Assembly (NCBI GenBank): GCA_035574915.1
Contig: DATLYJ010000044.1
Location: forward strand, 1 to 33,044
Origin: Dehalococcoidia bacterium
GTDB taxonomy: Bacteria > Chloroflexota > Dehalococcoidia > DSTF01 > WHTK01
Direction: 5' to 3'
DNA length: 33,044 bases
Shown in pieces: positions 1,543-12,542 of the stretch. The notes below the pieces were generated by a model that had not been told where the DNA came from, did no database searches, and worked only from the letters and a program-made list of their open reading frames with translations. Positions within the stretch are counted from its first letter, which is position 1. Every line of letters starts with the position of its first letter. The translations under genes and the position numbers were made by a program.

Positions 1543-1571
1543 AGGCGCCGCCGCCAGCGCGCCCGGCGCCT
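1543..1571 (-). terminator. Hairpin at the end of menE (weak terminator candidate)
   Basis: AGGCGCCG (1543-1550) and CGGCGCCT (1564-1571) form a perfect 8-bp inverted repeat with a 13-nt loop, overlapping the menE stop codon. No T-tract follows on the minus strand, so intrinsic termination would be weak. The next promoter starts about 25 bp further on, which fits an operon end here. Confidence 0.3.
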
Positions 1572-3039
1572 AACCGCCGTGGCGCTCGCGGAGCTCGCGG
1601 CGCAGGAGCTTGCCGGAGGCCGTCCGGGGCAACTCCGGCAGGAAGACGAAGGTACGCGGGGCCTTGTAGCCGGCAAGGCGCTCGCGGCACCAGGCCCGCA
1701 GCGCCTCGGCGCCGGCCTCGGCGCCCGGCTCGAGCACCACCGCCGCCGCCACGCGCTGGCCCCACTCCCGGTCGGGAAGCGCGAACACGCCCGCCTCCCG
1801 CACCGCCGCGTGCGCCTCCAGCACCGCCTCCACCTCCGCCGGGTACACGTTCTCGCCCCCCGTCACGATGAGGTCGTCGCGACGGTCGGCCACATACAGG
1901 TAGCCCTCGCTGTCCAGGTAGCCGTAGTCGCCCGTGCGCAGGCTGCCGTCGCGCAGGGCGGCCGCGGTCGCCTCCGGCCGGCGCCAGTAACCGGCCATCA
2001 CCGTCGGCCCCCGCACGGCGATCTCGCCCGCCTCGCCCGCCGGGGCGGCGCTGCCGTCCTCCCGCACGATGCTCAGCACCACCGTCAGCAGCGGCTTACC
2101 GGCCGACCCCGGCTTCGCAGCCGCCTCTTCCGGCAGGAGGGTCGACACCTGCGACGCCGCCTCCGTGAGCCCGTAAGTCGGCGCCACCGGTATGCCGCGG
2201 CGCAGGCACTCCTGCACCAGGTCCGCCGGCGCCGGGCCGCCGCCGAGGAGCACGCAGCGGAGCCTGGGGTGGTACGCGCCCTCATGCGCCGCCAGCATCC
2301 GCCGCAGCATCGTCGCCACCAGCGACACGATCGTCACATCGCCCCCGCTCAGGGCCTCGTTCACCCGCGCCGCGTCGAAGCCCTCGTGCACCTCGACCGT
2401 CATGCCGTACAGCACGCCGCGGAGCAGGATGGAGAGCCCGCCGACGTGGAACAGCGGCATGCAGGCGAGCCAGCGGTCGTCGTCCCGCACGCCCAGGTTC
2501 GCGGCCGAGCCGAGGGCGTTCCACAGGTGGTTGCCATAGGTGAGCATCGCCCCTTTTGGCCGCCCGCTCGTCCCGGAGGTGTAGATGATGCTGTGCAGCG
2601 CATCAAGGTCGAACTGACCCGCCTCCCCCATCGCCTCGCCGCCCGCCTCCGAGACCTCCTCCAGCGTCGCGAGCGCGCAGCGCGAAGGCGGTATGGGAGC
2701 GCCTCCGGCCGCCACCAGCAGCGCCGGCTCGCTGTCTGCGAGCTGCCAGGCCAACTCCGCGTCCGTTAAGCGCGTGTTGAGCGGCACCAGGGCGGCCCCG
2801 GCGCGCATCACGCCGAACACCACCTTGGCGAAGGCGGCGCTGTTCGGCGCCAGCAGCGCCACATGGTCGCCCGGCTTCACGCCCAGCGCCCGCAAGCGGC
2901 CTGCGACCCCGGAGGCCGCGGCGTCCAGGTCCGCGAAGCTAAGCGTCCCCTCACGCGAGACGATCGCCGTCCTCGCGGGCGACGCCGCGGCCCGTTGCCG
3001 GAGCCAGTCCGGCGTCGTCAGGCTCGGCTTCCCGCTCAC
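1570..3039 (-). CDS. menE: o-Succinylbenzoate-CoA ligase MenE
   Basis: Adenylate-forming ligase of 489 residues that would activate o-succinylbenzoate with ATP and CoA to OSB-CoA. Visible core motifs are the ATP-binding P-loop IIYTSGTSGRPKG (about 151-163), TYGLTEAAS, the hinge region with GDYGYLD and VADRRDDLIVTGGEN, and the C-terminal catalytic lysine in RTASGKLLRREL. Motifs alone do not separate it from other acyl-CoA ligases; the call as MenE rests on its place as last gene of a complete men cluster, directly after menC. The GTG start at 3039 overlaps the menC stop as GTGA, so translation is probably coupled. Confidence 0.9.
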   Translation of the reverse strand: MSGKPSLTTPDWLRQRAAASPARTAIVSREGTLSFADLDAAASGVAGRLRALGVKPGDHVALLAPNSAAFAKVVFGVMRAGAALVPLNTRLTDAELAWQLADSEPALLVAAGGAPIPPSRCALATLEEVSEAGGEAMGEAGQFDLDALHSIIYTSGTSGRPKGAMLTYGNHLWNALGSAANLGVRDDDRWLACMPLFHVGGLSILLRGVLYGMTVEVHEGFDAARVNEALSGGDVTIVSLVATMLRRMLAAHEGAYHPRLRCVLLGGGPAPADLVQECLRRGIPVAPTYGLTEAASQVSTLLPEEAAAKPGSAGKPLLTVVLSIVREDGSAAPAGEAGEIAVRGPTVMAGYWRRPEATAAALRDGSLRTGDYGYLDSEGYLYVADRRDDLIVTGGENVYPAEVEAVLEAHAAVREAGVFALPDREWGQRVAAAVVLEPGAEAGAEALRAWCRERLAGYKAPRTFVFLPELPRTASGKLLRRELRERHGG

Positions 3040-4121
3040 AGCTCGAAGACCGTCGTGCAGTAGCGCGCCACGGCCGCCGGGTCCAGCTCGACGCCGAGGC
3101 CGGGCGCCTCAGGGACGGCCATCGTGCCGCCCTCGGCCGAGGGCGGGCTCGCGGCGAGCGCCGACTCCAGGAGCCCGAGCGTCGCGAGCCCGTGCGCGGT
3201 CTCCGGCGCCATCGCCGAAGCCAGGTGCAGCGCCGCCGCCGTCCCGACCGCCGTGTCGATGCTCGTCGTGAACGTGACCTTCACCCCCACCGCCAGGGCG
3301 GAGGCCGCGACCTCCCTGGCCGCGGTTATGCCGCCGATGGCCACGGGCTTGAGCACCAGCACGTCCGCCGCGCCAGACCGCAGCACCCGGTGCGCCGCCG
3401 CGGCGTCCGAGATCTCCTCGTCCGCGGCCAGCGGCACCCGCGTCGAGTCCCGCAGCCGCCGGAACGCCTCGAGGTTCCCCGGCGGTATCGGCTGCTCGAT
3501 GTACTCCGGCTCATAGGGGGCGAAGTTCTTGATCATGTGGAAAGCCACATCCTCGTCCCAGGCCCCGTTCGCGTCCAGGCGCAGCCCGCGGTCCGGCCCC
3601 GCCGCGCCCCGGGCCGCCTTCACCCGCTCGATCTCCTCCCGCGCGCTGGCCGCTATCCCCACCTTGAGCTTCAGGCAGTCGAAGCCGGCGCGGCAGGCGG
3701 CGGACGCCTGCTCGTACACCACCTCCGGCGCCACCGCCGTGACCAGCGCGTTCACCTCCACCTCGCTGGCCGGCGAGGCCGCCAGCACCAGCGCCAGCGG
3801 CCGCTGCCAGGAGCGCGCCAGGAGGTCCCACGCGGCCATGTCGACGGCCGCGCCCGCAGGCCCCGGGCCGGTGCCCTCCACGATCGCCTCGACCTCCCGC
3901 CCGATCGCCGCGCGCAGCGTGGCCTCGACGCTCCGGCCGAAGGCCTCGATGTCCCCCGCCGCGTCCGGCAAGAGCGACGCCTCCCCCAGGCCCGTAAGGC
4001 CGGACTCCGACCGCAGCTCGACTATGAAGCCTTCGCGCGCGGCCGCGGAGCCGCGGGCGGTGGCGTAAGGCTGGCGAAAGGGCACCCGGTAGCGCAGCAA
4101 GCGGGCGCCCGCGACCTTCAT
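3036..4121 (-). CDS. menC: o-Succinylbenzoate synthase MenC
   Basis: Enolase-superfamily enzyme of 361 residues that dehydrates SHCHC to o-succinylbenzoate. The TIM-barrel active site is visible: KxK at 151-153 (KLKVG), metal ligands Asp183 (DANGAW), Glu209 (IEQP) and Asp234 (AADEE), and the second catalytic Lys258 (LVLKP). Family members can also be N-acylamino-acid racemases or dipeptide epimerases. The neighbours menB and menE make the OSB synthase role by far the most likely. The ATG lies 4 nt after the menB stop. Confidence 0.92.
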   Translation of the reverse strand: MKVAGARLLRYRVPFRQPYATARGSAAAREGFIVELRSESGLTGLGEASLLPDAAGDIEAFGRSVEATLRAAIGREVEAIVEGTGPGPAGAAVDMAAWDLLARSWQRPLALVLAASPASEVEVNALVTAVAPEVVYEQASAACRAGFDCLKLKVGIAASAREEIERVKAARGAAGPDRGLRLDANGAWDEDVAFHMIKNFAPYEPEYIEQPIPPGNLEAFRRLRDSTRVPLAADEEISDAAAAHRVLRSGAADVLVLKPVAIGGITAAREVAASALAVGVKVTFTTSIDTAVGTAAALHLASAMAPETAHGLATLGLLESALAASPPSAEGGTMAVPEAPGLGVELDPAAVARYCTTVFEL

Positions 4122-4125
4122 GGGC

Positions 4126-4944
4126 CTACGGGAAGCGCGGGAAGCGCGAGAAGTCGGGCTTGCGCTTCTCGAGGAAGGCGTTCTTGCCCTCCTTCGCCTC
4201 GTCCGTCAGGTAGTAGAGCAGCGTCGCGTCCCCGGCGAACTGCTGCAGGCCGGCAAGGCCGTCCTCGGCTGCGCTGAAAGCCGCCTTGATGAACCGCAGG
4301 GCCAGCGGGCTCTTCTCCAGGATCTCCTTGCACCACTGCACCGTCTCCTCCTCCAGGCGCTCGAGGGGGACGACGGCGTTCACCAGGCCCATCTCGTACG
4401 CCCTGCGGGCGTCGTACTGCCGGCAGAGGAACCAGAACTCCTTCGCCCGCTTGTCGCCCACCAGCCGCGCGAGCAGGGACGATCCGAAGCCGGCGTCGAA
4501 GCTGCCGACCCGCGGCCCCGTCTGGCCGAAGATGGCGTTGTCCGCGGCGATGGTCAGGTCGCAGACCACGTGCAGGACGTGGCCGCCGCCGATCGCGTAT
4601 CCGGCGACCATCGCGATCACCGGCTTGGGCAGCGCCCGTATCTGCCGTTGCAGTTCGAGGACGTTGAGCCGGGGCACGCCGTCGTCGCCGACGTAGCCGC
4701 CGTCGCCCCGGATTCGCTGGTCGCCTCCGGAGCAGAAGGCCTGCGTGCCGGCGCCGGTAAGGATGATGACCCCCACGCGGTTGTCCTCGTGCGCCCGGCT
4801 GAAGGCGTCCGACAGCTCGAACAGCGTCTGCGGACGGAAGGCGTTACGCACCTCCGGCCGGTTGATCGTGATCTTGGCGATCCCCTCGTAGTACTCGAAG
4901 AGGATGTCCTTGTATTCCCGGATCGGCTCCCAGTTGAACCCCAT
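4126..4944 (-). CDS. menB: 1,4-Dihydroxy-2-naphthoyl-CoA synthase MenB
   Basis: Crotonase-fold enzyme of 272 residues that cyclises OSB-CoA to DHNA-CoA, closing the naphthoquinone ring. Family-specific signatures are very clear: the FCSGGDQ oxyanion segment, the [18 protein letters not shown] block, [24 protein letters not shown], and the MenB tail [13 protein letters not shown] ending in [13 protein letters not shown]. Length matches the family. The start codon follows the menH stop by one nucleotide (TGACATG). It is the last pathway step encoded here; a DHNA-CoA thioesterase, MenA and MenG are not in the window. Confidence 0.96.
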
Positions 4945-4945
4945 G

Positions 4946-5776
4946 TCAGGCCTCCACCTTTTCGCTCAATAGAAACCTTGTCAGGAACTCGCCCGCCGCT
5001 TCGGCGAATGCCTCCGGGCGTTCGAAGTGCGTCGCGTGCCCCGCGCCCGGGATGATGCGCACCTCCGCGCCCGGGACCAGCGCCGCCATCGACCGCGCCA
5101 GGGCCGCGTAGCGGGCGTCCAGTTCGCCGGCCACGAACAGGACCGGCAGCCGCAGTCCCGGCAGCCGGTCGAAGACGTAGTCCTGCGCGCCGGCGCCCAT
5201 GCCCCGCAGGCTGTTCGCCAGCCCCCTGGGCGAGTTCTGGAGCCGCTGCGCCCGCAGCGCCGCTCGCCGTGACTCCGGCAGCAGCTTCTGGCTCTCCCAC
5301 AGCGGTATCGACTGCCAGTAGTCCACGAAGGCCTCGATGCCTTCGCGCTCGATGCGCTCCGCCAGCGCCTCGTCGCTGGCTACGCGCGCCGCCCGCTCGG
5401 CGGCGTCCGCGATGCCGGCCGACGCGCTCTCGATGACGAGCGCGCTCACTCGCTCTGGCCGCCCGAGCGCGAACTGCAGCGCCAGCCGGCCGCCCATCGA
5501 GTAGCCGGCGAGCGCCGCCCGCTCGATGCCCAGGGCATCGAGCAGGGCCGCGAGGTCGGCGCAGAAGGCCGGCGCCGTGTAGCGCTCGACGCTGGCCGGC
5601 GAGTCGGAATCGCCGTGCCCCGTTATGTCGACCGCAACCGCACGGAGGCGCGGCCAGCGCTCGGCGATCGGCCGCCAGTTCGTCGCGCGGCCCGTGAACC
5701 CGTGCAAGAGCACCACGGGCGGCCCCTCGCCCCAGACCTCCACGTTCAGGCCGATGCCGTTGACCTGCACGCGCAT
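4946..5776 (-). CDS. menH: SHCHC synthase MenH (alpha/beta hydrolase)
   Basis: Alpha/beta-hydrolase of 276 residues, predicted to eliminate pyruvate from SEPHCHC to give SHCHC. The oxyanion loop HGFTG (25-29), nucleophile Ser93 in GYSMGGR, Asp220 (AGELDARY) and His247 ([12 protein letters not shown]) form the triad. GYSMGGR and the order of residues match MenH of other bacteria. A general esterase cannot be excluded by motifs alone, but its place between menD and menB fixes the role. Its ATG overlaps the menD stop by one base (TGATG). Confidence 0.92.
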
Positions 5777-7593
5777 CAGCGCCCCTCCAGGGCGCCGGCC
5801 TTCTCGCGCTCGCGCGCCAGCGCCTCGCTCACCTTGGACCAGATGTCGCGGTGCACGGCCAGGTTCTCGGCGCGGTCGGTCCGCACCTCGATGAGGGTGA
5901 CCCCCGCGCTCCCCAGCGATCGCGCGACCGCCGCGTCGAACTCATCCGGGCTCTGCGGACAGGCGTAGTCGAGCCCGTAGAGCGCGGCCGCGTGCTCGAA
6001 GGTGAGCCCGTGCGGCGTGCCGAAAAGCTCCTCGAAGTGCTCCCCCTGCTCGGCCTGCGGCAGGAAGGAGAAGATCGCGCCGCCATCGTTGTTGATCACC
6101 ACGATCGTCGCGTTGATGCCGTGGCGCTTCGCCGCGAAGAGGCCGTTCATGTCGTGGTAGAGCGAGATGTCACCCAGGACGAGCACCGTGGGCTGGCCGC
6201 TGGCGGCCGCGACCCCGAGCGCCGTCGAGACCACGCCGTCGATGCCGCTCGCGCCTCGGTTGGCCAGAAAGCGCAACCTCTTCGCGCTCGCGGGCCAGAA
6301 GGAGTCGAGGTCGCGCACCGGCATGCTGTTGCCGGCGAAGACGACCGAGTCCTCCGGCACGAGTTCCGCGAGGCGGCGGAACACAAGCGGCTCCGTGAGC
6401 TTCCCGCAGCCGCCGATCTCGGACTCGATGACCGCGGCGGCCGTCTCGTTCGCGCGGCGCCAGGCGTCGAGCCAGGCGCGCTGCTCCGCGGCGCCGGGAC
6501 CGGGCCCTTCGCCGGGCCCGTGGTCCGCTTCGCCGTAGGCCTCCGCCACCTGCTCGATCAGGCCCATCGCCTGCAGGCCGGACCCCCAGCCGATGTGGCT
6601 CGCCGTCCGCGCGGGGTCTACCCATGTCTCCGGGGGCGTCACGACTATCTGGACGGCCTCGCTGTTCCTCTCGAGGAACTGCTGCAGCGGCTTGGAAGTC
6701 GGCACGGCGCCGATGCGCACCACGTAGTCGAAGGCCAGGCTCGCCGCCGTCGCCTCGTCCCTGAGAAAGGCGTCGTAGCGGTCGATCACGGGCCCCGCCA
6801 GGGCGCCGCACCTCAGCTGCGAGAACGCATCGGCGAGCACGGGTATGCCCCGCCGCAGCGCCGCGCTCAGGGCCTCATGGCCGCCGTTGCCCGCGTCCAT
6901 CGGGCCGCAGACGACGAGGCCTCTGGCCGCCGGCCCGAGTTTCGCCCGTAGGTCGGGAATGTCCAGCGAGGGGTGGGAGGGGCTGCCTCGGCTCACGGCC
7001 GTGAGCCGCCGAGGCCGGGCCTCCGCGGCCTCGTCCCTCTGGCGCGGCGCCGGCACCAGCGGCTCCCGGAACGGGAAATTCAGGTGCACCGGCCCGGGCG
7101 GCGCCGAGAGCGCGGTCGCGACGGCGCGGTCGGCGGCATAGCGGGCGTGGCGGACGGCGAGCGGTGTCGCTTCGGGCAGCAGCATCTCCTCGAAACGTTT
7201 GGCGTGCGACCCGTACAGACGCACCTGGTCGATCGTCTGCAGCGCGCCCACGTCGCGCAGCTCCTGGGGGCGGTCGGCCGTGAGCACCAGCAGCGGCGTC
7301 TGCCCGTACTTCGCCTCTACCACCGCGGGCAGGAAGTTCGCCGCCGCCGTGCCGGAGGTGCACACCACGGCCGCGGGCCGGCGCTGGGCCTTCGATATTC
7401 CGAGCGCGAAGAATGCCGCCGACCGCTCGTCCAGGTGCATCCACGTCCTCAGCTTCGGGTGCTCCCGTACCAGCATCGCCAGCGGCGTCGAGCGCGAACC
7501 GGGGCACACCACCACGTCCGTGACGCCGCAAAGCGCCATCTCGTCGACGAATGCCCCGACGTATGCCCGCAGGGCGACGGCGTGCGCGTCCAC
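5776..7593 (-). CDS. menD: SEPHCHC synthase MenD (ThDP-dependent)
   Basis: Thiamine-diphosphate enzyme of 605 residues that joins isochorismate and 2-oxoglutarate. The N-terminal pyrimidine-binding domain shows VVCPGSRSTPLA and SGTAAANFLPAVVEA, followed by TADRPQELRDVGA. The C-terminal ThDP/metal motif is LGDISLYHDMNG with VINNDGGAIFSFLPQ. The frame stays open upstream to 8001 inside menF, but that extension is arginine-rich out-of-frame menF sequence. The GTG at 7593, overlapping the menF stop as TAGTG, gives the normal family N-terminus and is the start I chose. Confidence 0.95.
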   Translation of the reverse strand: MDAHAVALRAYVGAFVDEMALCGVTDVVVCPGSRSTPLAMLVREHPKLRTWMHLDERSAAFFALGISKAQRRPAAVVCTSGTAAANFLPAVVEAKYGQTPLLVLTADRPQELRDVGALQTIDQVRLYGSHAKRFEEMLLPEATPLAVRHARYAADRAVATALSAPPGPVHLNFPFREPLVPAPRQRDEAAEARPRRLTAVSRGSPSHPSLDIPDLRAKLGPAARGLVVCGPMDAGNGGHEALSAALRRGIPVLADAFSQLRCGALAGPVIDRYDAFLRDEATAASLAFDYVVRIGAVPTSKPLQQFLERNSEAVQIVVTPPETWVDPARTASHIGWGSGLQAMGLIEQVAEAYGEADHGPGEGPGPGAAEQRAWLDAWRRANETAAAVIESEIGGCGKLTEPLVFRRLAELVPEDSVVFAGNSMPVRDLDSFWPASAKRLRFLANRGASGIDGVVSTALGVAAASGQPTVLVLGDISLYHDMNGLFAAKRHGINATIVVINNDGGAIFSFLPQAEQGEHFEELFGTPHGLTFEHAAALYGLDYACPQSPDEFDAAVARSLGSAGVTLIEVRTDRAENLAVHRDIWSKVSEALAREREKAGALEGR

Positions 7594-9587
7594 TACTCCA
7601 CGCCTAGCGCAGACAGCATCGCCTGCAGCTTCACGTTGGACTCCTCGTACTCGCGCCCGGGGTCGGAGCCGGCGACGATGCCGCAGCCCGCGTAAAGCGT
7701 GACCTGCTCGCCCTCCGCCAGCGCCGACCGGATGGCCACCACGAACTCGCCGTTGCCGCCCGCGTCCACCCAGCCGCAGGGCCCGGCGTACCAGCCGCGG
7801 TCGAAGGCCTCGTACCTCTCGATCAGCTCCAGCGCCGCCTCCCGGGGCTGCCCTCCCGTCGCCGGCGTGGGATGCAGGCGCTCCACGAACTCGAAGATGT
7901 CCTGGCCCGGCAGCGCCAGCGCCGACACGGGCGTATACAGGTGATGCACGTTCGCGTAGCTGACGATGCGCGGCGCAGGCGCGACCTCCACGCTCACGCA
8001 CAGCGGCGCCAGCGCCTCTTCGATCGCCGACACGACGACCTTGTGCTCGTGCAGCTCCTTGGGGTCGTGCAGGAGCCGCGAGGCCATCTCCCGGTCCTCC
8101 GTCTCGTCCCGCCCGCGCGAAATCGACCCCGCCAGCGCGTCGACGTTCACGACGCCGTCCTGGATGCGCAGCAGCCGCTCCGGGGTGGCGCCGAAAAAGC
8201 AGGCCCCCTCCCGGGCGAACGCGAACAGCGTGCAGGAAGCGTAGCGGGAGGCGAGGCGGCGCAGCGCCGCGGAGAAGTCTACGCCCCCTTCCGCCCGCAG
8301 CCTCACGGTCCGCGCCAGCACCACCTTTTCCGCTCTGCCAGCCTCGATGTCCGCCAGCAGCGAACGCACGGCAGCCTCCCAGGCCTCCCGTTCGTCCTCG
8401 TCCGCCGGGCAGGGGGCCAGGGGACGCGGCTCATGCGAGTCCCCGCCGGGCGCGGTCAGGCGCGCTAGCTCACGCTCCACGGCAAGGACCTCCGCCTCGG
8501 CCTCTGTTCCTTCGGTCACCGGCAGCGACACCGTCAGCCACCATTCGCCTCGCTGGCAGGCGAAGAGGAACCGCGGCACGGAAAGGGCGGCGTCCGGGAG
8601 TCGAGACTCAGGACCGCCGGCGGCCGGCTTGAAGGCGAAGGCCCCCAGCGCGACCGGCGCCTCGAAGGGCGCCGTGCCGGCATCGACCACGGCCTCGTCC
8701 AGCGCCGCCTTCCACGCCCGTCGCGTCTCGTCGATGCGGTTGGCGCCGGCCGCTTTCAGGCTCCAGGCCTCTCCGGCCGCGACCATCGCGACGCCATCCG
8801 ACGGTTGCTGCCAGAAGGCGGCCGGAGCGCCGGCGCGTTCGAACACCGCTACGGGGTCCACGGGGTCACAGGCCAGGGTCACGGACGCCAGCACCGGCCG
8901 CCCCTGGGCCGTCGCCGCCTCTCGGGCGCGGCCAAGGACGCCCTGCAGACGTTCCCGCAGCTCCCGCTCGAAGCTCGCCTCCGGCGGCGGCACGCGGACG
9001 CCGACGCTGCGCACCAGCAGCGGCCGTAGCGCCTCGTAGGCGTCGTGCAGGCGGGCGGGCTTGCCCGACAGGAGCCAGCGCATCACCACCTCGTTGAGGG
9101 CGCCGAACCAGGCCGTTGCCGCCACCTGCGTGTCCAGCGGCTCGATGACCCCGAGGCGCACCGCCTCGTCCAGCTGCTCCTTGATGATCGACGCGAACTC
9201 CTCGTGGATCTCCGACAGCCGGCGGTGGAACTCCTTGCCCGCGCCCAGGGCCTCGATCATGAACAGGCGCGCCAGCGAGCGGTGCGAAGCGAATGTCCGC
9301 AGCACGACAACCAGGGCGGCGTCGGCGCGCTTTATCGGGTCCGGTTCCGACTCGATCGTCTCCTCGATCTTCCGGCGCAGCCTCGATGCCGTCCGGTCCA
9401 GGAGCTCCAGGAAAATGGCCTGCTTGCCCGGGAAGTGAAAGTAGACGCCGCCCTTGGAGGTCTTTGACTCGCTCGCGATGTCGTCCACGGCCGCGTCCCG
9501 GTAGCCCTTGCGCGCGAAGACACGCAGGGCGGCGTCGAGGATCTTCTCGTGGCGGCGGCTGGCGCGTTCCTGCGGGATCATTTCCAA
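7593..9587 (-). CDS. menF: TetR repressor - isochorismate synthase MenF fusion protein
   Basis: One open frame of 664 codons joins two complete proteins. Residues 1 to about 197 are a TetR-family regulator: the helix-turn-helix spans roughly 14-60 (KILDAALRVFARKGY, DIASESKTSKGGVYFHFPGK), followed by the helical effector domain. Residues about 203-664 are a full-length isochorismate synthase: N-terminal domain (PVLASVTL, DPVDPVAVFE), catalytic-base region AEKVVLARTV (Lys421), FFGATPERLL, AGSISRG, LHPTPATGGQP, DRGWYAGPCGW and YAGCGIVAGSDPGREYEE. It catalyses chorismate to isochorismate, the first committed menaquinone step, and heads the men operon. Starts: TTG at 9587 or ATG at 9581. An internal GTG at 8993 could produce free MenF. 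A palindrome at 9593-9606 may be its own operator. Confidence 0.92.
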   Translation of the reverse strand: MEMIPQERASRRHEKILDAALRVFARKGYRDAAVDDIASESKTSKGGVYFHFPGKQAIFLELLDRTASRLRRKIEETIESEPDPIKRADAALVVVLRTFASHRSLARLFMIEALGAGKEFHRRLSEIHEEFASIIKEQLDEAVRLGVIEPLDTQVAATAWFGALNEVVMRWLLSGKPARLHDAYEALRPLLVRSVGVRVPPPEASFERELRERLQGVLGRAREAATAQGRPVLASVTLACDPVDPVAVFERAGAPAAFWQQPSDGVAMVAAGEAWSLKAAGANRIDETRRAWKAALDEAVVDAGTAPFEAPVALGAFAFKPAAGGPESRLPDAALSVPRFLFACQRGEWWLTVSLPVTEGTEAEAEVLAVERELARLTAPGGDSHEPRPLAPCPADEDEREAWEAAVRSLLADIEAGRAEKVVLARTVRLRAEGGVDFSAALRRLASRYASCTLFAFAREGACFFGATPERLLRIQDGVVNVDALAGSISRGRDETEDREMASRLLHDPKELHEHKVVVSAIEEALAPLCVSVEVAPAPRIVSYANVHHLYTPVSALALPGQDIFEFVERLHPTPATGGQPREAALELIERYEAFDRGWYAGPCGWVDAGGNGEFVVAIRSALAEGEQVTLYAGCGIVAGSDPGREYEESNVKLQAMLSALGVE

Positions 9588-9592
9588 ATCCG

Positions 9593-9606
9593 ACCGACGC
9601 GTCGGT
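9593..9606. promoter_or_regulatory. Perfect 14-bp palindrome, probable TetR operator of the men operon
   Basis: ACCGACGCGTCGGT is exactly self-complementary. It ends 6 bp before the TTG start of the TetR-MenF gene and covers the predicted transcription start. TetR-family repressors typically bind short palindromes of this kind at their own promoters, so autoregulation by the fused TetR domain is the simplest reading. I noticed only single half sites elsewhere in the window. Confidence 0.65.
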
Positions 9607-9614
9607 TTGTCCGC

Positions 9615-9643
9615 ATCCTACTCCCGCTGAGCGCTAGGGACAA
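9615..9643 (-). promoter_or_regulatory. Promoter of the menFDHBCE operon
   Basis: On the minus strand TTGTCC (9638-9643) and TAGGAT (9615-9620) are spaced by 17 nt. Each matches the sigma-70 consensus at four of six positions. Transcription would start near 9608, at the edge of the palindrome at 9593-9606, so a bound repressor would block initiation. Confidence 0.5.
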
Positions 9644-9775
9644 CACGCTCACGCCCGTCGCGACTCTCCACCACAGTCAGGCGCCGGAGGGCGCGCGCGA
9701 AACCCCCGGCGCTTTGCTCACCCTTCCGGGTGCGGCTGCTCGGCTTCAGCGGCGTAGAATGCGGAAACCGCCGTT

Positions 9776-9784
9776 TGCTAAGAT
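9776..9784 (+). promoter_or_regulatory. Possible extended -10 promoter of the peptide ABC importer
   Basis: TGCTAAGAT is an extended -10 element (TGn plus TAAGAT, four of six matches), with no clear -35. Transcription from about 9791 would give an 80-nt leader with a hairpin at 9809-9824. TAGAAT at 9755-9760 is an alternative. The rest of the 286-bp divergent intergenic region shows nothing else I can name. Confidence 0.3.
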
Positions 9785-9808
9785 TCGTACCTGGTATTGC
9801 ATTCGAGT

Positions 9809-9824
9809 CCCCTGACTGCAGGGG
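9809..9824 (+). other. Leader hairpin upstream of the ABC importer
   Basis: CCCCTG (9809-9814) pairs with CAGGGG (9819-9824) around an ACTG tetraloop, in the predicted 5' leader of the binding-protein gene. No T-tract follows. It may stabilise the mRNA or bind a regulator; no function can be assigned. Confidence 0.3.
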
Positions 9825-9873
9825 CAGGGAGCTTGGGAGCTTTCCGAAGCGCGGGGACAGGGAGGATAGGGCG

Positions 9874-11523
9874 ATGAACAAGACGATTCTCGGACTCTTC
9901 GGCGTGATCGCTGCCCTCGTCATCGTCCTCGGCGTCCTCGCGATCGTCATCCTCGGCGGCGGCGGCGACGATGGTGGCGGTGGTTCTACCCAGGGCGGCG
10001 ACCCCCTGAACCCGAACCGGGGTGGCGCCCAGGCAGCGGCGGGAGACCTGAGACTCCTCGGCGCTGACCCCATCACCCTCGACCCCGCGCTCGCCGGCGA
10101 CGCCGGCTCCGCGACCTACATCGTCGAGATCTTCGGCGGCCTCGTAACCCTGGACCGCGACCTGAAGGTCGTCCCCGACATCGCCGAGCGCTGGGAGGTC
10201 AGCCCTGACGGCCGCACCTACACGTTCTTCCTGCGCCGCAACGCCCTCTTCCACGACGGCCGCCCCGTGACCGCGGACGACTTCAAGTACTCCATCGAGC
10301 GCACCGCCAATCCACGCACGGCGTCCACCACCGCCGAGGCCTACCTGGGCGACATCGTGGGCGCGCGCGACATGATCCGCGGCCGCGCCCAGTCCATCTC
10401 CGGGGTCCAGGTCGTCGACAGCCTGACGCTCCGCATCACCATCGACGAGCCGAAGCCTTACTTCCTCGCCAAGCTGACCTACCCGACCGCCTTCGTGGTC
10501 GACAAAAACCAGGTCGAAGCCAACCCGCGCAACTGGACGCGCCGCCCGAACGGCACCGGCCCCTACAAGCTCCAGGAGTGGCGCCTCAACGAGCGCATCA
10601 TCCTTACCGCCAACGACAAGTATCACCTGGGCGCGCCGTCCGTGAAGCGCGTGCTGTTCAACCTTGCCGGCGGCTCCGCGCTCACGCAGTTCGAGAATAA
10701 TGAGATCGATGTCGCGGGCATCAGCATCAACGACATCGAGCGCGTCCGCAGCCCGCGCGACAAGCTCAACCCGCTGTACCGCACGGCTCCCAGCCTCTCC
10801 ATCGACTACATAGGCTTCAACACCAAGACCGCGCCCTTCGACGATCCCAAGGTCCGCCAGGCTTTCGCCCTCGCCATCGACCGCGAGCAGATCGCGAAGG
10901 TGCTGTTCAAGGACATGGTGCCGGTGGCGAACGGCTTCCTGCCTGCCGGCTCTCCGGGCTACAACCCGAACTCGAAGGGGCCAGAGTACAACCCGGAGCG
11001 GGCACGCCAGCTGCTCCAGGAGTCCAAGTACGCCGGCCGCCTGCCGCCGATCACCTTCACGGAAGCTGGCGCGGGCGCGACCGCCGGCCTCGACACCCAG
11101 GCCATCATCGAGATGTGGAAGCAGAACCTCGGCGTCGAGGTGCGCATCGCCCAGACCGAGGTCGCGGCCTTCTTCGATGACCTCGACCGCGGCAACCTCC
11201 AGCTCTTCAGTTCCGGCTGGATCATGGACTACCCCGACCCCGAGAACGTCCTCGACCTCCTCTTCCACAGCCGCAGCCGCCAGAACAACACGCGCTACGA
11301 GAACCCCGAGTATGACGCCCTGGTGGAGCGGGCCCGCACGGAGCAGAACGTCGAGCGGCGCCTCGCGCTCTACCGGGAGGCCGAGCAGATCCTCCTGCGC
11401 GACCTGCCCTGGGTGCCGCTGACCTTCGGCGTCCAACACTTCGTGGTGCAGCCGCACGTCAAGGGCTATGACCCGCGGGCGATGATTATCCCGCGTCTGC
11501 GCTTCGTGACCATCGAGCGCTAG
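9874..11523 (+). CDS. Peptide/oligopeptide ABC transporter substrate-binding protein (family 5)
   Basis: Extracytoplasmic solute-binding protein of 549 residues, SBP family 5 (DppA/OppA type). The N-terminus has a membrane segment (about residues 5-30, rich in Ile, Leu and Val) followed by a glycine/aspartate-rich linker. There is no lipobox cysteine, so it seems to be tethered by an uncleaved helix or released. Family features include DPALAGDAGSA, RWEVSPDGRTYTFFLR, FHDGRPVTADDFKYSIER and the WIMDYPDPENVLDLLF block. The ATG at 9874 has a good Shine-Dalgarno sequence (GGAGG at 9861-9865); the open frame continues upstream but without protein-like sequence. It is followed by two permease genes. 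The ligand is unpredictable from sequence. Confidence 0.93.
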   Translation: MNKTILGLFGVIAALVIVLGVLAIVILGGGGDDGGGGSTQGGDPLNPNRGGAQAAAGDLRLLGADPITLDPALAGDAGSATYIVEIFGGLVTLDRDLKVVPDIAERWEVSPDGRTYTFFLRRNALFHDGRPVTADDFKYSIERTANPRTASTTAEAYLGDIVGARDMIRGRAQSISGVQVVDSLTLRITIDEPKPYFLAKLTYPTAFVVDKNQVEANPRNWTRRPNGTGPYKLQEWRLNERIILTANDKYHLGAPSVKRVLFNLAGGSALTQFENNEIDVAGISINDIERVRSPRDKLNPLYRTAPSLSIDYIGFNTKTAPFDDPKVRQAFALAIDREQIAKVLFKDMVPVANGFLPAGSPGYNPNSKGPEYNPERARQLLQESKYAGRLPPITFTEAGAGATAGLDTQAIIEMWKQNLGVEVRIAQTEVAAFFDDLDRGNLQLFSSGWIMDYPDPENVLDLLFHSRSRQNNTRYENPEYDALVERARTEQNVERRLALYREAEQILLRDLPWVPLTFGVQHFVVQPHVKGYDPRAMIIPRLRFVTIER

Positions 11524-11540
11524 CAGGCCGCAGAGCAGCC

Positions 11541-12542
11541 GTGCAGGGGGCCCTCCCTTACCTGATGCGACGGCTACTCTGGCTGCCGGTCATCCTCTTC
11601 GCCGTCACAGCCATAACCTTCACGATGGCCCGCCTCGGCCCCGGAGACCCCATCTCCATCCTCCAGGGCCAGTTCCGCGACCCCGAAGTGCGGGAGCGCA
11701 TCCGTAAGGAACGCGGCCTCGATGACCCGATCTGGGAGCAGTACTACATCTACATGAAGGGGGTCTTGACCGGCCTCGAGTTCGGCGAGAGCTACCGCTT
11801 TCGCGGCATAGACGTCGAGGAGATCATGTTCCCCGCCATCTGGCGCTCCATGCAGTACAACGCCGTAGCCTTGACCATCACCATGGGCATCGGCATTCCC
11901 GTCGGCGTCTTCGCCGCCCGCCGGCAGGGCACATGGGTCGACCCCGCCTCGATCAGCACCTTCCTCCTCTTCCAGTCGATCCCGAGCCTGATCTCGGTGC
12001 CTTTTCTGCTGCTTTTCTTCCCCCTGAAGCTCGGCGTGCTCGACGCCCGGGGTTGGCCCCAGGACTGCCCCGTCTATCTCGACGTCCTGCCATCCGGCTA
12101 TGAGTGCATCGGCGTCCTGAGCGAGCAGGCCGTGATCCCAATCCTGGCCCTCTCCGTGCCCGGGATCGCCGTGTGGGCCCGCTACACGCGCGCCTTCACC
12201 CTGGACGTGCTCGCCGCCGACTACGTCCGCACCGCGCGCATGAAGGGCATCAGCGAACCCGTGGTCATGGCGCGGCACGTCATGCGCAACGCCATGCTCC
12301 CCTTGAGCACGATCATCATCTTCTCGCTCGTCGGCCTCCTCGAAGGCTCCTTCTTCGTCGAGACCCTCACGGGCATCCCCGGCTTCGGCCGCCTCGCCTT
12401 CGAGTCCATCGGCGGCCGCGACTACGACATGATCATGGCCATCACCATCGTCGGCTCCACCGCCTTCGTCCTCGCTAGCATCGCCGTAGACATCGTTTAC
12501 ACCCTCATCGACCCGAGGATCCGCTATGGCAGTCGGGGCTGA
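11541..12542 (+). CDS. ABC transporter permease, DppB/OppB type
   Basis: Inner-membrane permease of 333 residues for the same importer. The N-terminus MRRLLWLPVILFAVTAITFTMARLGPGDP is typical of DppB (shown here split: the first helix precedes LGPGDP). The C-terminal cytoplasmic EAA loop (DYVRTARMKGISEPVVMARHV) contacts the ATPase. An extracytoplasmic insertion with two cysteines (about 171-190, QDCPVYLDVLPSGYEC) lies between helices. The start is GTG at 11541 or the in-frame ATG at 11565, which trims eight residues. It lies 17 nt after the binding-protein gene and overlaps the next permease by 17 nt. Confidence 0.92.
   Translation: MQGALPYLMRRLLWLPVILFAVTAITFTMARLGPGDPISILQGQFRDPEVRERIRKERGLDDPIWEQYYIYMKGVLTGLEFGESYRFRGIDVEEIMFPAIWRSMQYNAVALTITMGIGIPVGVFAARRQGTWVDPASISTFLLFQSIPSLISVPFLLLFFPLKLGVLDARGWPQDCPVYLDVLPSGYECIGVLSEQAVIPILALSVPGIAVWARYTRAFTLDVLAADYVRTARMKGISEPVVMARHVMRNAMLPLSTIIIFSLVGLLEGSFFVETLTGIPGFGRLAFESIGGRDYDMIMAITIVGSTAFVLASIAVDIVYTLIDPRIRYGSRG

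Follow-up and report, generated by a model that had tools for sequence, protein, structure and literature searches.

TetR-type repressors with binding sites similar in sequence or position to the one described here have been studied in other pathways. In Burkholderia cenocepacia, the TetR-type regulator PaaR (BCAL0210) controls phenylacetate genes through an operator core, ACCGACCGGTCGGT, which lies in the core promoter and is needed for negative control, as its mutation abolishes this control (PMC2770484). The TetR family member PfmR (TTHB023) of Thermus thermophilus recognizes the related site TACCGACCGNTNGGTN (PMC7022988). The TetR repressor MbdR, which acts on 3-methylbenzoate genes, has an operator overlapping the transcription start and is released by an aryl-CoA of the pathway (PMC4424350). 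For menaquinone synthesis, feedback has been described as an effect of DHNA on MenD in Mycobacterium and Staphylococcus (PMC9835592). In the open-access literature, we found no report of men or mqn genes under TetR control and no transcription factor dedicated to menaquinone synthesis by either route; the feedback reported there is allosteric.

Here, we analyzed a palindrome in front of a men operon within a stretch of 33,044 nucleotides from a Dehalococcoidia bacterium, referred to as the window. With a probability of roughly 0.88, the comparative evidence points to this palindrome being the operator of a pathway-independent repressor of the TetR family that is dedicated to the supply of menaquinone (vitamin K2) in Chloroflexota. 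The PaaR core is an instance of the pattern ACCGACNNGTCGGT, under which the palindrome is kept in relatives, so that the core of the PaaR-type operator class is present. However, the PaaR site is located between the -35 and -10 boxes, serves catabolic phenylacetate genes and has no link to menaquinone (PMC2770484), whereas the sites described here are linked to men or mqn genes instead of phenylacetate genes. PfmR differs in its targets, which are fatty-acid and phenylacetate-type genes (PMC7022988), and MbdR in its operator, ATACN10GTAT, and its catabolic inducer logic (PMC4424350). The effect of DHNA on MenD is likewise a feedback on menaquinone synthesis, but it is allosteric, acts at the enzyme level within the Men route only and is not transcriptional (PMC9835592). 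The class of binding site is already known from PaaR and PfmR. We found no open-access paper that describes it in the service of menaquinone across two routes.

The palindrome, its promoter and the men operon

The perfect palindrome ACCGACGCGTCGGT occupies positions 9593-9606 of the window, as the sequence-only reading had claimed, and is flanked on the minus strand by a right-hand extension, CGG (9590-9592), which in relatives belongs to a fuller AAACCGACCGAC-NN-GTCGGTCGGTTT. The promoter claimed together with it is also present on the minus strand, with the -35 box TTGTCC at 9638-9643 and the -10 box TAGGAT at 9615-9620 separated by a 17-nt spacer, which places the predicted transcription start at about 9606-9608, at the edge of the palindrome. 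The intergenic region is common to the men promoter and to divergent peptide-type ABC transporter genes (SBP_bac_5, BPD_transp_1) at 9730-12542 on the plus strand.

In the 3.25 Mb genome, ACCGACGCGTCGGT is the sole copy at up to one mismatch to the full 14-mer. Random sequence of 33 kb is nevertheless expected to hold about two perfect 14-bp palindromes (33044/4^7), and a generic sigma-70 promoter scanner returned no promoter at its threshold. For these two reasons the bare palindrome is weak evidence and could be read as a chance palindrome without function. The significance of the candidate site comes from its conservation in other genomes, and a comparative register test was used in place of the generic scan.

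The first gene behind the promoter encodes a TetR-MenF fusion (7593-9581, minus strand), for which the ATG at 9581 is the likelier start, with an in-frame TTG upstream at 9587. Its TetR domain covers approximately residues 3-200 of the ORF (8988-9581, minus strand) and consists of a helix-turn-helix TetR_N part, scoring 57.5 bits against a curated cut-off of 24, and a TetR_C_24/TetR_C_4 part. The isochorismate synthase (MenF) domain spans approximately residues 213-662 (7602-8951, minus strand; TIGR00543, 323.5 bits against a cut-off of 224.75). In line with the earlier claim of a six-gene operon, profile searches identified MenD, MenH, MenB, a MenC-like protein and MenE after the fusion. On the minus strand, menD (ORF as listed, 5776-8001; TIGR00173), menH (4946-5776; TIGR03695), menB (4126-4944; TIGR01929) and menE (1570-3039; TIGR01923) all score above their cut-offs. 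The enolase-superfamily gene at 3036-4121 (minus strand; MR_MLE_N/MR_MLE_C) stays below the cut-offs of the menC models and is assigned as menC-like by fold and operon position. The operon is hence assigned to the isochorismate (Men) route by curated models for menF, D, H, B and E, and by fold and position for menC. Homology to MenD begins at residue 148 of its ORF (about 7560), the roughly 147 preceding residues overlapping the end of menF, and the true menD start is probably near that end, at about 7596.

The probable operator and the promoter are conserved in register

TetR orthologues were searched in near relatives, with a 36-row profile in the class, where 72 of 393 genomes had one, and in the phylum, where the figure was 110 of 400. 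In 58 of 75 species, the 250 nt upstream of tetR contain the pattern ACCGACNNGTCGGT with no more than one mismatch; in 27 the match is perfect. As decoys, the half-site's 59 remaining permutations reached a mean of 0.15 and a maximum of 5 species in the same set. Half-site spacings of 0, 1, 3, 4, 5 and 7 gave no sites at all; spacing 6 scores too, as the fuller form given above repeats the half-site at 4-bp intervals in relatives. Equal-length downstream windows contained a single site in 1788. In a further sample of the phylum the site was present in 34 of 45 (decoy mean 0.05), so that the proposed check, whether the palindrome is kept upstream of tetR-menF orthologues, came out in favor of the sequence-only reading.

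For the register test, a promoter of the form TTG-N16-18-TAnnnT was anchored on the operator, and its -10 box had to begin 8-20 nt upstream of the site. Such a promoter exists in 44 of 66 species; shuffled upstream sequences averaged 0.45 and never exceeded 3. Most men operons closely related to that of the window have this box starting at -13 or -14, which puts the predicted transcription start at the operator edge; the geometry predicted earlier for the window is therefore supported across species. Conservation against decoys and downstream windows, together with the promoter in register, makes the palindrome very probably a TetR operator, and supports the view that it behaves as an operator overlapping the transcription start of the men operon. 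A palindromic operator over its own promoter, as is typical of the TetR family, is thus predicted from comparative genomics. Genome-wide, exact sites were not in excess of a control pattern, and only positional evidence therefore counts. This in-register conservation across the phylum effectively refutes a chance palindrome.

Its place at the predicted 5' end of the mRNA, together with a possible 5-bp stem, would also fit a hairpin in the transcript rather than a protein-binding site in DNA. The pattern of substitutions speaks against it: 50 of 59 imperfect sites alter one half only, just 2 alter both identically, and in the class set C-to-T changes, which keep G-U pairing, are as frequent as G-to-A changes, which lose pairing (8 versus 8). 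The distance from site to gene varies as well. Since half-site changes occur without compensation, the RNA hairpin was rejected, and we regard it as highly improbable.

Candidate operator sites away from tetR

Several sites are found at menaquinone genes that are not linked to tetR. In the nearest relative of the window's genome (G001), tetR resides on another contig than the men genes and has its own one-mismatch site, while a 12+2+12 bp operator is situated just upstream of menF. A second genome (G024) carries a second exact site upstream of a PF02621 (MqnA/D) gene and a radical-SAM gene of the MqnC/E type, and in a third (G321) the operator precedes mqnE-mqnA. Conversely, five men operons whose upstream DNA is intact, from genomes in which no TetR orthologue was detected, have no site at up to one mismatch. 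The unlinked sites and their absence where TetR was not detected indicate that the putative repressor acts in trans at the promoters of both men and mqn genes, beyond autoregulation.

The additional copies suggested for the neighborhood of menA or menG did not materialize: none was found in the window's genome, where all eight of the remaining one-mismatch sites lie over predicted ORFs, the overlap being a weak case for the one on L077. Several further exact sites in relatives fall inside ORFs. An exact ACCGACNNGTCGGT is also placed in front of two non-orthologous TetR genes (L093:1971-2608 and L257:1165-1833). Operator specificity may consequently not be exclusive, which could mean cross-talk or a PaaR-like operator class of wider extent.

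The site could alternatively serve autoregulation of tetR only, the true targets being elsewhere, e.g., fatty-acid genes as with FadR, and the men genes mere passengers on the transcript. Autoregulation is common among TetR repressors, and the nearest solved relatives in a sequence search are FadR-like TetR proteins (FadR/YsiA of the Bacillus subtilis type; PDB 3whb, NCBIfam NF053878), which have the TetR_C_4 domain match in common, with MbdR further down the list. Membership in FadR (NF053878) itself was rejected, with 81.1 bits against an equivalog cut-off of 200 and a different gene context. Against autoregulation as the sole function stand the operators upstream of unlinked men and mqn genes, the absence of further intergenic targets from the window's genome, and the gene context, as nearly all of the 75 tetR orthologues lie beside menaquinone genes. 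Moreover, tetR is the first gene, so that even pure autoregulation would still control the operon. We therefore consider restriction to autoregulation very unlikely.

One probable repressor and operator with several menaquinone routes

Among the 75 tetR genes, 29 head men operons, 14 futalosine (mqn) operons and 11 mqnL/mqnP clusters, while 17 precede menB. Sites with at most one mismatch accompany 25/29, 14/14, 11/11 and 5/17 of these, respectively. In one genome (G089), MqnE, MqnC and MqnL scored above curated cut-offs and MqnA/D was recognized via PF02621, which identifies a futalosine operon. The degenerate sites of the menB-only family count against the operator reading. In this family (f23), tetR is directly followed by menB (71-78% identical; L104, L105, L106, L177-L179, L184 and L186-L188, and further loci L190, L192-L194, L204, L207 and L208). 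Its operators are often asymmetric, with TCCGAC as the right half-site when read on the opposite strand.

In a phylogenetic tree all TetR members fall into one supported clade (99/98), in which Men and Mqn members are interleaved; the long-branch paralogue PAR_L093 also falls inside it. Mapping the Men label on the tree needs 8 changes, at least 5 of which are forced by well-supported branches. The same repressor-and-site pair thus very probably guards two unrelated menaquinone routes, as judged from gene context and phylogeny.

In several genomes that combine mqnL-mqnP with an NMT1-type ABC transporter, neither MqnA/D nor a MenB above cut-off was detected. Clusters with the TetR operator, an NMT1-type substrate-binding protein, an ABC transporter and late genes (mqnL/mqnP or ubiE/ubiA) were seen at L109, L083, L085, L098, L100, L173, L255 and L240, in genomes without MqnA/D or MenB above cut-off. 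As several of these genomes are incomplete, absences of pathway genes are provisional. In G071, which is 97% complete, tetR and the operator head NMT1-ABC-ubiE-ubiA (L109:1614-6842); we detected no MenF beyond TrpE-level similarity, no MenB above cut-off and no MqnA/D in this genome. The NMT1-type ABC transporter is a candidate importer of a dihydroxynaphthoate precursor, and a third, precursor-importing way is probably under the same repressor-and-site pair.

The same TetR and operator head men, mqn and transporter clusters, and the system is wider than men. The closed feedback loop on the men operon proposed from the sequence is supported as far as an operator at the men promoter is concerned, but was drawn too narrowly. 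Since futalosine and transporter clusters are headed by the same pair, the predicted control is that of menaquinone supply rather than of MenF as such.

The TetR-MenF fusion

The frame containing TetR comprises 662 aa in the window, compared to 197-240 aa in 74 other species, and a fusion is seen in the window's genome only. Enzymatic and DNA-binding domains are here combined in one predicted frame, which makes the protein a candidate trigger enzyme, a metabolic enzyme that would also regulate transcription. Most relatives encode tetR and menF as separate genes overlapping as ATGA or GTGA. Self-repression of the operon by its first enzyme, as suggested from the sequence, may hold for the fusion, but does not extend to the 74 other species; the predicted fusion is a local derivative of a single genome.

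An assembly or sequencing artefact could have created the fusion, or MenF could also be made alone from an internal start. The fusion comes from one metagenome-derived genome, relatives have the separate overlapping genes, and in G016 the TetR and MenF parts lie in one frame with a TGA between them. At the junction in the window, however, no stop is found nearby in any of the three frames, so that a single-base error would not restore the arrangement of the relatives and is an unlikely cause. On balance, we regard an artefactual fusion or a separately made MenF as unlikely, and favor the fusion as a local derivative.

Discussion

According to the proposed mechanism, a TetR dimer on ACCGAC-NN-GTCGGT would cover the transcription start, the -10 box ending about 8 nt upstream. 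The bound dimer would block initiation and thereby repress the operon including tetR itself, and a ligand would modulate its binding to the operator. Depending on the lineage, one orthologous repressor with its operator would control the Men or the Mqn route. Where neither route was detected in a genome, it would control late genes and the NMT1-type ABC transporter, for which import of dihydroxynaphthoate is proposed. Only in the window's organism would the repressor be fused to MenF, making the first enzyme of the route physically the repressor.

The relationship to FadR-like proteins and MbdR leads to the question of the ligand. An acyl- or aryl-CoA would fit the Men route, with OSB-CoA and DHNA-CoA as intermediates. 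The futalosine route is not known to involve a CoA ester. Ligand candidates common to both routes would be chorismate, a dihydroxynaphthoate, a quinone or the quinone redox state. The signal is probably something common to all routes, such as dihydroxynaphthoate, (demethyl)menaquinone or the quinone redox state, and not a Men intermediate. We lean towards a wider scenario, in which a phylum-wide, route-independent repressor was kept while lineages switched between isochorismate, futalosine and import, and would therefore respond to the common product, a naphthoate or quinone, and not to an intermediate of one route; in the species of the window it would now be part of the first enzyme.

If true, the persistence of one repressor over two non-homologous routes would mean that regulation can outlive its pathway, and would narrow the signal to a common metabolite or redox state. 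The operator would then provide a handle for menaquinone genes, including the candidate precursor importer, across an under-cultured phylum.
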